NCBI GenBank assembly: GCA_019637295.1
Contig: JAHBVX010000001.1
Span: forward strand, 471,501 to 535,500
Length of the DNA: 64,000 bases
Direction: 5' to 3'
DNA from: Polyangiaceae bacterium
GTDB taxonomy: Bacteria; Myxococcota_A; Polyangia; Polyangiales; Polyangiaceae
A model generated the notes under the pieces. That model had not been told where the DNA came from and did not search any database. It worked only from the letters and a program-made list of their open reading frames with translations. How positions within the stretch are numbered: the first letter of the stretch is position 1; every line of letters begins with the position of its first letter. Made by a program: the position numbers and the translations under genes. Below, piece after piece: positions 28,483 through 32,652 of the stretch.

Positions 28483-29484
28483 TCAGCAGCCGCTCTGGCC
28501 GCCGGTCCCGCTGCAGGTCTGCGCCGTGCAACACACCCCGGATGCACAGGAGAAGGCCCCCGTGCAGCTCGCCGTGCAGGTCGTCCCGCCGCAGCTCACC
28601 TTGCCCGAGCACGCGGAGGCGCCGCTGCACGCGATGGTCGTCGAGGGCGCGCTGCTGTCCACCCCGGAGCTGCACGCGTACGAGCCGCAACCGACCTTGC
28701 ACTGCGCGCCGGCGCACTTCACCTTGCCCGAGCAGCTCCAGGCGCCCGAGCAGTCCACGTCACAGCTGTCACTCGCCGTGCACTCCACCGCGGACTTGCA
28801 GGCGTTCGACTCGGTGCAGTCGATGGCGCAGGTCTTCCCAGAGCAAGTGACGGCCCCGCCGCAGGCCGAACTCCCGCACTGGAGCGTGCAGCTCTGAGCG
28901 CTGCACTCCACGCCCGAGGAGCAGGCGCTGAAGCCACACGCGACCGCGCACTTGTCCCCACCGCATTTGACGGCGCTGCCGCAGGAGCCGCTCCCCGTGC
29001 AGTTGACGGTGCAGCTCGCGGCCTTCGTGCAGTCCACGCCGGCGCCGCACGCGTAGCCCTCGCACTCCACGCGACACGGAATGGATGGGGGGCACTCGAT
29101 CTTGTTCGGGCAGCCGAACGCGGGGCACTCGAACACGCACGTGCCACCCTGGCACACGCCGCCCGCGGTCGCGCAGGTCGCGTCGCACGGGAGCGGGGGA
29201 GCGCCCCCGCTGCCACCGGTAGCCGCGCCGCCGCTGCCGCCCGCCGGCGCGCCGCCCGACGAGGTTCCCCCGCTCGCCGCTGCCCCCGCAGCGCCGCCGG
29301 TCGCGCCGCCACCGCCCGCAGCGCCGCCGCTTCCCCCGCTCGCTGACTGACCGCCGCTGCCCACTGCACCGCTGCCGGCAGCGCCTCCTGCCGAGCCGCT
29401 CCCACCATAGAGCCCCGCGTCGGTGCTCGAGCCGCAGCCGAGGCAGGTCACGAGGGCGACCGCGAGCCATCCTTCGAGCCTCAT
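28483..29484 (-). CDS. Cys-repeat lipoprotein
   Basis: A 333-residue protein: signal peptide with lipobox LGC (Cys17), a Gly/Ser/Ala-rich linker (residues about 25-97), one short Cys-rich module (CDATC to CPSIPC region), then nine tandem repeats of about 21 residues (DNA 28516-29076), each with the pattern C-x3-C-x4/5-C-x4-V-x-C-x3/5. Most Cys positions are invariant; repeats 7 and 8 lack one Cys each, at positions facing one another. No enzymatic motif. It is probably a rigid disulfide-bonded surface or periplasmic stalk. It lies 60 bp downstream of the lamin-tail-domain protein and may share its transcript. Confidence 0.82.
   Translation of the reverse strand: MRLEGWLAVALVTCLGCGSSTDAGLYGGSGSAGGAAGSGAVGSGGQSASGGSGGAAGGGGATGGAAGAAASGGTSSGGAPAGGSGGAATGGSGGAPPLPCDATCATAGGVCQGGTCVFECPAFGCPNKIECPPSIPCRVECEGYACGAGVDCTKAASCTVNCTGSGSCGSAVKCGGDKCAVACGFSACSSGVECSAQSCTLQCGSSACGGAVTCSGKTCAIDCTESNACKSAVECTASDSCDVDCSGAWSCSGKVKCAGAQCKVGCGSYACSSGVDSSAPSTTIACSGASACSGKVSCGGTTCTASCTGAFSCASGVCCTAQTCSGTGGQSGC
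28516..29076 (-). repeat. Nine tandem Cys-rich coding repeats of about 63 bp
   Basis: In-frame repeats inside the Cys-repeat lipoprotein gene. Representative units begin CRVECEGYACGAGVDC, CTLQCGSSACGGAVTC, CAIDCTESNACKSAVEC and CTASCTGAFSCASGVCC. Units vary by one or two residues in length but keep four Cys and a Val two residues before the fourth Cys. Divergence between units suggests an old duplication, not recent slippage. Confidence 0.8.
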
Positions 29485-29544: not shown

Positions 29545-31320
29545 TCAGCCGAGGTGGCGACGGGCGCCGCGTCGGGCCGCGATCAGCCCGAGGCCGAGCA
29601 GTCCGAGGAGCCAGGCGCCGGGCCGATCGCGCTCGCCGCCGGGAACCGCGCAACCACAGCCGCCGTCGTCGCTCGAGCTCGAGCTGCCGCCGCCCTGGTT
29701 CAGGCCGCCGAAGTTGCCGACGCCGCCGGTGGCGCCACCCGAGCCCGGGGTCCCGCCGGAGCCGCCCGTGGCGGCGCCGCCGCCCGTCCCAGCGCCGCCG
29801 GTCCCGGCGCCGGCGCTGCCGCCGACACCTGCTCCGCCCGAGCCGCCGCTCGGCGTTCCGCCGGAGCCACCGCCGGTGCCGCCGGTGCCCACGGTGCTGC
29901 AGTCGTTGAACGGGCTCGAGGTGTTCTTGGGCGAAGGGGTGCCCGTGCTGAAGTCGGCCTGGTTGTCGTCGGTGTCGATGCAGCCGCCGCCCGCGCGCAG
30001 GAGCGCGGTCGGGATGCCGGGCGACGGTGCGCGCCCGCTCCCCTCGAACTGACTGGCCGTGGCGCCGAAGCCGACGAAGTCGACGATGCTGCTGCTCGTG
30101 CAGGGCGTGCCTGCCGCGCCGCAGCCCGAGAGCACCGCGCCATGCACCAGCATCAGCTTGCCGGCGTTGAGCGACAGGTTCGTCGTGTTGGCGGCGTCCG
30201 GGGTTGGCAGCGGCGTGCCCGTCGCGCCCGTGCCTGCTCCGAGCCCCACGAGGTAATACTGACCCGGCGCGAGGGAGGTGTTGGTCAGGGCGGTCGAGGT
30301 CGTCGCCGCGCCGGTGAAGTTCCCCTCGGCGGTGCCATACTGCAGGAAGAGCCCGCCGAGCGAGACGGCGGACGTGCTGCGGTTGAAGAGCACGACGTAG
30401 TCGCTCGCCACCGGCGAGTTGTTCCCGGAGCCGGCGTAGATCTCCGCGATGGTGATGCCAGTGGGCGGCGTGCCGCCCCCGCCACCAGTTCCGCCAGTTC
30501 CGCCGCCAGTCCCGCCGGTTCCGCCAACTCCGCCAATTCCGCCGCCGGTCCCGCCGGTCCCACCGCCGGCTCCGCCAGCTCCGCCAGCTCCGCCGCTGCC
30601 GGCGTCCGGCACCGCGCTGCAATCGAACGCGGCGGTGCTGGAGTTGCGCGGAGTGGGCGCGCCCACCTCGAAGTCCGCGGCGTTGTCGTCAGTCTCCACG
30701 CAGCCGCCGTTCTTGCGCTTGGCGGAGGTTGCATTGGAGGGCGCCGCGGTCGGCCCCGAGCCCTCGAACTGCTGCGCGGTCGACCCGTAACCGACCAGAT
30801 CGACGATGTCCGTGGTCGCGCACTGGTTGGCCGTCGTGCCGCAGCCGTTCAGCGGCGTGGAGACGAGGGCGATCTTCCCAGCCGTCGCGCCCAGACCGAG
30901 GTTTCCGGTGGCGTCCGGCGTCGGCAACGCGCCGGGGCTCCCCGCGCCAGCGGCGAGCTGTACCAGGAAATACTTCCCGGGATCGATGGTCGCCGTCGGC
31001 AGGGCGAACACGTTGCTGCCGGAGTTGAACGCGCTGGTGTTCGCCGCGTACTGCAGCGACAGGCCCGCGAGCGACGCTGCAGCGCTGCCACGGTTGAAGA
31101 TCACCACGAAGTCATTGGTAAACGGCGCGTTGGTGTTGCCGCCGCCGCCGTACACCTCGGCGATCACCAAGTCCGGGCTGAGCTCCTGCGAGAGCGTCCC
31201 GAGCGGATCCGACTCGTCGGCGCCCGAACAGCCAGTCGGCAGCACCGCCGCGAGCACCGCGGCAACGGACAGTAGGCGAGACGAGAGCCGTCGAAGAGAC
31301 GAATTGCTGAGCTGGGCCAT
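29545..31320 (-). CDS. Secreted protein with two lamin-tail domains and MYXO-CTERM anchor
   Basis: A 591-residue protein: signal peptide with a lipobox-like TGC (Cys31 region, LPTGCSG), lamin-tail domain 1 (begins DLVIAEVYGGGGN; NDFVVIFNRG), a Gly-rich linker, lamin-tail domain 2 (begins ITIAEIYAGSGN; SDYVVLFNRS), a second long Gly/Ala linker, then a MYXO-CTERM-like end: GCGC, hydrophobic AWLLGLLGLGLIAA, RRGARR. The two domains align along their whole length, including a paired-Cys segment and the QFEGSG and TDDNxADF motifs, so they arose by internal duplication. Lamin-tail domains occur in secreted nucleases and adhesins; no nuclease domain is present. The ATG at 31320 has AAGGA upstream. 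Confidence 0.85.
   Translation of the reverse strand: MAQLSNSSLRRLSSRLLSVAAVLAAVLPTGCSGADESDPLGTLSQELSPDLVIAEVYGGGGNTNAPFTNDFVVIFNRGSAAASLAGLSLQYAANTSAFNSGSNVFALPTATIDPGKYFLVQLAAGAGSPGALPTPDATGNLGLGATAGKIALVSTPLNGCGTTANQCATTDIVDLVGYGSTAQQFEGSGPTAAPSNATSAKRKNGGCVETDDNAADFEVGAPTPRNSSTAAFDCSAVPDAGSGGAGGAGGAGGGTGGTGGGIGGVGGTGGTGGGTGGTGGGGGTPPTGITIAEIYAGSGNNSPVASDYVVLFNRSTSAVSLGGLFLQYGTAEGNFTGAATTSTALTNTSLAPGQYYLVGLGAGTGATGTPLPTPDAANTTNLSLNAGKLMLVHGAVLSGCGAAGTPCTSSSIVDFVGFGATASQFEGSGRAPSPGIPTALLRAGGGCIDTDDNQADFSTGTPSPKNTSSPFNDCSTVGTGGTGGGSGGTPSGGSGGAGVGGSAGAGTGGAGTGGGAATGGSGGTPGSGGATGGVGNFGGLNQGGGSSSSSDDGGCGCAVPGGERDRPGAWLLGLLGLGLIAARRGARRHLG
30470..30603 (-). repeat. Gly-linker minisatellite (9-bp-type units)
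   Basis: A run of CCGCCxxxx units (for example ccgccagtt, ccgccggtt, ccgccaatt) read on the minus strand as GGTGGTGGG-type glycine codons. It encodes the linker between the two lamin-tail domains. Such arrays can change length by slippage or recombination. Confidence 0.6.
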
Positions 31321-31461
31321 GGCAGTCCTTCTACCCGAGCGGCGCCCGCGATCGGGTGACAAAGCGATGACCCACCTGCGCCGCGGCGGCAACCGTGGAC
31401 GGCATTCCCCAGGGCTCTCGACGCCTTGCGTCGCGTGCCCGACGGCCACATATGCGCTCGG

Positions 31462-32652
31462 GTGAGCCAAGTTGCCTGGGGAACGGTGCTGGCCTGGGCA
31501 GCGGTCGTCGCCGCGGCTGGCCTGCTGCGCAGCAAGAGCTACGCGATCTTCCGGGCCGTGCTGCTGGGCGTCTACTCGCTGATCTTCCTGGGGCTGGCAG
31601 CAGCGTGGAGGAGCACGCCGCTGTGGCCGCTGGTCGTCTACTTGCACGCGACGGTGTTCATCCATTCGTTCGCGTTGATTCGGCCGCGGCTCTTCCCGTC
31701 GCTCTACCGCGCGCTGGTCAGCGTGCCGCAGGCCTTCTTCGCCGCGGGGACGTTGCTCGGTCTGCCTTGGGCCATCGCAGCTGCCCTGGGGCTCCCACCC
31801 TACGGCTTCTTCGTGCCGTATCTCCTCGCGCTCGTCGGTGTCCTACAGTCCCTGGTGAGTCGCGAGGAAGAGGTAGACGTGGTGGTGGCCGACGGTCACG
31901 TGGTGCCGGGCGTTCGGCGGCACCCGAGCGGCGGCGGCGCAAGCGAGCGCCCGCTGCGCATCATCCAGCTCACCGACCCGCACCTCGGTCCCTTCATGTC
32001 CGTCGAGCGCCTGGAGCGGATCTGTCGCCGCGCTGTGGAGCGAGAGCCGGATCTCGTCGTGCTCACGGGGGACTTCCTCACCATGGAGTCGCAGTCCGAT
32101 CCGGGCCTGCTCGGGCGGGCCCTCGCTCCGCTGCGCGCGCTCGAGGGCAAGACCTTCGCGTGCTTTGGCAACCACGACCACGAGGCGCCGGACACGGTCC
32201 GCTCGGCGCTCGAGTCCGCCGGAGTGACGCTCTTGATCGACGACGCGGCGCAGGCACAGACGCGCGCTGGGGCCGTCCAGATCATCGGCATGGACTTCCA
32301 CTGGCGCGAGCGCAAGGCGCGCATGGCGGCGGTGTGCGCGCGCCACCCCCGGGAACCGGGCGCGCTGCGGGTGGTCTTGCTGCACAATCCTGCGGCATTT
32401 CGTGAGCTAGCCGACGGCGAGGCGGATCTCGTGCTCTCGGGGCACACCCACGGCGGTCAGGTGGGCCTGGTGAGCTTGGGCCTGCCGCACACGCTGTTGC
32501 GAGTGCTCATGAACGCGCCGGATCACGGCTTCTGGGCGAGCGGGACCAACCGCCTCTACGTGCACCGCGGCACCGGCCACTATGGCTTTCCGCTCCGGCT
32601 CGGGGTGCCGGCGGAAGAGAGCCTGCTCAGGGTACACGCTCCAGAGCGCTGA
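31462..32652 (+). CDS. Membrane-anchored calcineurin-like metallophosphoesterase
   Basis: A 396-residue protein with about four N-terminal membrane spans (residues 1-125) and a C-terminal phosphoesterase domain holding the full metal-binding series: TDPHLG, GDFLT, GNHDHE, LLHNP and SGHTHGGQVG. It resembles the YkuE/YaeI branch, whose members hydrolyse UDP-2,3-diacylglucosamine or related phosphodiesters at the membrane; the substrate here is not known. The start is uncertain: GTG at 31462 was chosen, TTG at 31426 is possible, and neither has a good ribosome site. The deoxyhypusine-synthase-like gene follows after 40 bp. Confidence 0.87.
   Translation: MSQVAWGTVLAWAAVVAAAGLLRSKSYAIFRAVLLGVYSLIFLGLAAAWRSTPLWPLVVYLHATVFIHSFALIRPRLFPSLYRALVSVPQAFFAAGTLLGLPWAIAAALGLPPYGFFVPYLLALVGVLQSLVSREEEVDVVVADGHVVPGVRRHPSGGGASERPLRIIQLTDPHLGPFMSVERLERICRRAVEREPDLVVLTGDFLTMESQSDPGLLGRALAPLRALEGKTFACFGNHDHEAPDTVRSALESAGVTLLIDDAAQAQTRAGAVQIIGMDFHWRERKARMAAVCARHPREPGALRVVLLHNPAAFRELADGEADLVLSGHTHGGQVGLVSLGLPHTLLRVLMNAPDHGFWASGTNRLYVHRGTGHYGFPLRLGVPAEESLLRVHAPER

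Follow-up and report, generated by a model that had tools for sequence, protein, structure and literature searches.

Paired loss of cysteines points to an intra-coil disulfide staple in a predicted lipid-anchored beta-solenoid of Myxococcota

The window, that is, the whole 64,000-nt stretch of Polyangiaceae bacterium DNA analyzed here, carries on its minus strand an open reading frame (ORF; positions 28483-29484) whose translation is a Cys-rich product of 333 residues. The ORF list and the translation bear out the first-pass annotation in its strand and coordinates as well as in the Cys-rich repeats and the lipoprotein appearance that it described. Homologues with a matching layout, roughly 33-52% identical to the window protein, occur in the host's own family and, more widely, in its class and phylum, and on this comparative evidence the ORF is a real gene. 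The following features were assigned to it:

28483..29484, minus strand: whole gene for a Cys-rich, probable lipoprotein of 333 aa with a predicted beta-solenoid (P0001), from the ORF list, translation and homologues
29434..29484, minus strand: residues 1-17, putative signal peptide with a probable lipobox (C-L-G-Cys17), by eye and from the homologue alignment
29188..29433, minus strand: flexible Gly/Ser/Ala-rich linker, residues 18-99, with zero Cys, from the sequence
28483..29187, minus strand: predicted beta-solenoid domain, residues 100-333 plus stop (234 residues, 44 Cys), from the AlphaFold2 model and slot labelling
28639..28656, minus strand: coil missing both C1 and C2, Ser277 to Thr282, from the sequence and slot labelling

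The window protein is probably secreted and lipid anchored. Its lipobox, C-L-G-Cys17, was read by eye and aligns with the lipid-modified Cys of three homologues (L003, L006 and L012), in which this residue is followed, as in the window protein, by a GSS...GL[F/Y]GG motif. A motif close to CGSSxxxGL[F/Y]GG thus directly follows the lipid Cys in the window protein (residues 17-28) and in these homologues; it also occurs in L031, an otherwise unrelated lipoprotein, and is possibly a sorting signal.

The gene is flanked on one side by an RND pump with its outer-membrane channel and on the other by a lamin-tail-domain protein, and we see no apparent functional link to either. The latter gene (29545-31665, minus strand) encodes two lamin tail domains (Pfam LTD) with Gly-rich linkers, and its product ends in a Cys/hydrophobic/Arg tail that, by eye, resembles a myxobacterial sorting signal of the MYXO-CTERM-like type. 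Six homologue loci, when compared, had no partner gene in common; because the gene neighbourhood is not conserved, context lends no support to a function, and an operon-based function was dropped.

Pfam and NCBIfam contained no family for the window protein at E values up to 1, Pfam contained none for 11 homologues at an E value of 0.1, and a literature search found no description of the family. Members were found in Myxococcota only, where other phyla were covered solely by two peptide patterns, and plasmids yielded no match. A scan of genome contigs with the single protein found nothing, and a wide alignment had no conserved stretch usable as a query; a four-row alignment retrieved 8 loci. 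A weak second match in the host genome (L161) proved to be a protein of another kind, rich in Cys and Gly, and all further matches in that genome were restricted to the linker. The Cys-rich repeats of some protists may resemble those of the window protein.

Four Cys slots per coil (C1 to C4) were assigned by a dynamic-programming parse, which gave the coil consensus V-x-C1-x4/5-C2-x-V-x-C3-x4/5-C4-x3 and a family-wide mean period of 21.6 residues (843 coils). Narrow loop limits in the slot labelling produced false single losses, and the final loss counts use a replacement labelling. The first-pass annotation had described nine four-Cys repeats of about 21 residues; the Cys-rich repeats and their length stand, but the window protein comprises ten four-slot coils, a final half coil and caps, the latter containing Cys 100, 104, 318 and 333. 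The number of coils among homologues ranges from about 3 to 19, and three homologues belonging to other Myxococcota classes (L164, L165 and L170) have longer C3-C4 loops in alternating coils.

In one coil of the window protein, VDSSAPSTTIAC, C1 is replaced by Ser277 (codon 28656-28654) and C2 by Thr282 (codon 28641-28639). The two missing Cys had been noticed at first pass and are real, but whether they count as the fourth Cys of repeat 7 and the first of repeat 8 is a matter of the chosen repeat boundary: the repeat had been cut between C1 and C2, and the pair therefore looked like neighbours across that boundary. In the register of strands and hydrophobic residues, Ser277 and Thr282 are C1 and C2 of one coil, five residues apart. 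The nearest homologues (L003, L004 and L005) likewise have neither C1 nor C2 in their third-from-last coil. Among the homologues, joint loss of C1 and C2 was seen in 0 of 270 coils at the first two positions and clusters in coils 4-9, and the pattern in which coils 5 and 7 are both empty recurs in several homologue groups.

Cys losses were counted over 135 homologous ORFs. C1 was missing in 96 of 978 and C2 in 105 of 961 assigned positions, as opposed to 0 of 908 for C3 and 3 of 918 for C4. C1 and C2 were lost jointly in 93 coils, C1 alone in 3 and C2 alone in 12. Paired loss, as claimed at first pass, thus exceeds chance by far (10.7 joint losses expected; p 6e-111), although the p-values assume independent coils, which is not fully true, and the thinned counts are therefore the safer figures. 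After thinning to below 50% identity, 69 joint losses remained against 12 single ones (C1 alone 3, C2 alone 9), and 47 single-linkage clusters at 45% gave 33 against 8 (C1 alone 1, C2 alone 7); clustering at 40% left just three clusters, with which the test has little power. When losses were simulated as independent and passed through the same parse, 3-7 joint and 123-148 single losses of C1 and C2 resulted. A simulated joint loss of C4 and the C1 of the next coil (C1′) was recovered as such, and the labelling is hence able to detect other pairings. In the homologous ORFs, the neighbouring pairs C2-C3, C3-C4 and C4-C1′ did not covary; for C3-C4, this is because both slots hardly vary.

The two Cys are not always lost together, as the 15 single losses demonstrate, but most of these fall into recognizable groups. 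Six affect the final coil to be labelled (L019, L112, L134, L150, L154 and L158), in which the remaining Cys could pair with a terminal Cys instead, and two are in coils with an extra Cys beside C3 (L116 and L125). Another four come from L157 and L159, two related homologues that each have a pair of adjacent C1-only coils, where a coil-to-coil disulfide may replace two staples. The remaining three (L072, L075 and L081) have no obvious explanation; the Cys count of L072 and L075 is odd, which implies a truly unpaired Cys.

The parity of the Cys counts is informative independently of the parse. Of 124 proteins, 111 have an even number of Cys in the domain (p 1.5e-20), and reading the sequences of the 13 odd-count domains indicated that about nine are odd merely because the lipobox Cys was counted. 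Such counts support complete disulfide pairing.

Given residues 96-333 together with eight homologues as input, AlphaFold2 modelled the domain as a beta-solenoid with high confidence (pLDDT 93.5, pTM 0.89), in agreement with the solenoid proposed at first pass. Each coil of the model has two strands, the first ending at C1 and the second spanning C2 to C3, with C4 in a loop, so that the turn connecting the two strands of a coil has C1 on one side and C2 on the other; the strand pattern continues unbroken through the coil that lacks both. A 16-coil homologue with five empty coils was likewise predicted to be a solenoid (pLDDT 87.3, pTM 0.83). Searches for relatives of known structure gave no sequence match by phmmer against the PDB, nothing significant for the domain model in a viral structure library, and, in a PDB profile search, a match to internalin J that we rejected as due to chance (E value of 0.51). 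The passenger of Antigen 43 is a self-associating surface beta-helix. This passenger (4kh3) ranked first among beta-helices in VIA-align (Z 16.0, 4.3 Å rmsd over 206 residues, 7% identity) and is the top structural neighbour by that measure, though Foldseek found no significant match in the PDB (best E value of 1.7). Antigen 43 possesses a C-terminal autotransporter (translocator) barrel, whereas the window protein has a probable lipid anchor, ends after the solenoid and matches no Pfam model.

Collectively, the covariation of C1 and C2, the even Cys counts and the confident solenoid prediction make a C1-C2 disulfide very likely, and we strongly infer from the covariation that it lies within one coil. 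The first-pass annotation was thus supported in proposing a disulfide between the two covarying Cys, but it had this bond join successive repeats, cross-linking the solenoid coil to coil. Two covarying Cys would be expected there as well, and the adjacent C1-only coils of L157 and L159 could hold an inter-coil bond; however, the pair is separated by five or six residues within one strand-turn-strand unit, loss of C2 is independent of loss of the next C1 (11 joint losses against 12.0 expected), and C4 and the next C1 were jointly lost in 0 cases, which leaves this arrangement very improbable as the general rule. We give a similarly small chance to the idea that the Cys ligate a metal or an iron-sulfur cluster instead of forming disulfides. 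The protein is indeed very Cys-rich, and two ligands of one site would also disappear in pairs, but it is probably exported, with a putative signal peptide, the Cys count is even almost universally, no metal-binding family was matched, and the pairs vanish coil by coil with their neighbours unaffected, unlike what a four-Cys site would entail.

Disulfide-stapled solenoids are known from ice-binding proteins. In the beetle antifreeze proteins TmAFP and DhbAFP (Tenebrio and Dorcus), each coil of a right-handed solenoid has an interior disulfide that joins two Cys spaced six residues apart (PMC8038014), and a secreted, disulfide-rich predicted beta-solenoid, ChloroIBP, has been described from Chloromonas (PMC4838330). 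The C1-C2 covariation and the solenoid model of the window protein fit an intra-coil staple of the beetle type, the bond itself being deduced, and by analogy the beetle solenoid is the nearest working analogue. That the window protein might itself bind ice is nevertheless the least probable of the alternatives. The beetle proteins are built of 12-residue coils (TCTxSxxCxxAx repeat) with a single disulfide each, and TCT forms their ice-binding face, whereas a coil of the window protein measures about 21.6 residues and contains two Cys pairs, and a T-x-T array is absent: the outward residues of its second strands read T/N, A/A, T/Q, A/D, D/D, K/G, T/A and T/S, and across the family these positions mix D, T, A, R and E. 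ChloroIBP probably shares secretion, richness in disulfides and the predicted fold with the window protein, but its 15 Cys are irregularly placed on the loop side, it has a TxT ice-binding face, and a regular C1-C4 coil is lacking. TraA and the myxo disulfide repeat proteins likewise display Cys-rich repeats on myxobacterial surface proteins, whereas the window protein matches no NCBIfam or Pfam model. A further alternative concerns function: the protein could be a lipid-anchored spacer or an envelope or matrix protein that has no specific partner and in which the staples just give stiffness and protease resistance. The conserved core and caps beside variable outward positions, together with the variable coil number, are consistent with such a role, and nothing speaks directly against it; it is hard to separate from an adhesin, and we regard it as a tentative possibility. 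Overall, we favor, with a probability of roughly 0.7, a lipid-anchored parallel beta-solenoid with C1-C2 staples inside its coils that forms a rigid surface rod.

In the favored solenoid architecture, the C-terminal domain would be built of about 11 coils, each 20-22 residues long, in which a short strand up to C1 is followed by a turn, by a second strand that spans C2 to C3 and by a loop bearing C4. The C1-C2 disulfide would staple the two strands of one coil together at their corner, and C3 and C4, by elimination, very likely form a second staple of the same coil. Coils would stack through backbone hydrogen bonds and not through inter-coil disulfides. The C1-C2 staple would be dispensable in single coils and lost as a unit, the C3-C4 staple indispensable. 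The long Gly/Ser/Ala linker would hold the rod away from the membrane, and the anchor and linker together would expose it at the surface. A rigid, protease-resistant surface rod of this kind might serve adhesion or self-association, a speculative last step that we take from the architecture alone and to which we assign well under even odds.

Among disulfide-stapled beta-solenoids, we regard the window protein as a new variant that falls outside the antifreeze and autotransporter families. Slightly short of an even chance, in our estimate, is the wider proposal that it represents undescribed, Myxococcota-wide solenoids on a lipid anchor whose disulfides form two ladders within the coils; one ladder would be optional and the other essential, staples would be lost as units, and orphaned neighbouring Cys would re-pair between coils in some members (L157 and L159). 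Because a disulfide comes and goes as a unit within the regular repeat of these proteins, the family is a natural data set from which the contribution of each staple to stability would be directly measurable coil by coil; it may also provide a scaffold for very stable designed solenoids. For the myxobacteria themselves, it adds a widespread, unannotated family of putative surface proteins that is missing from Pfam and NCBIfam.
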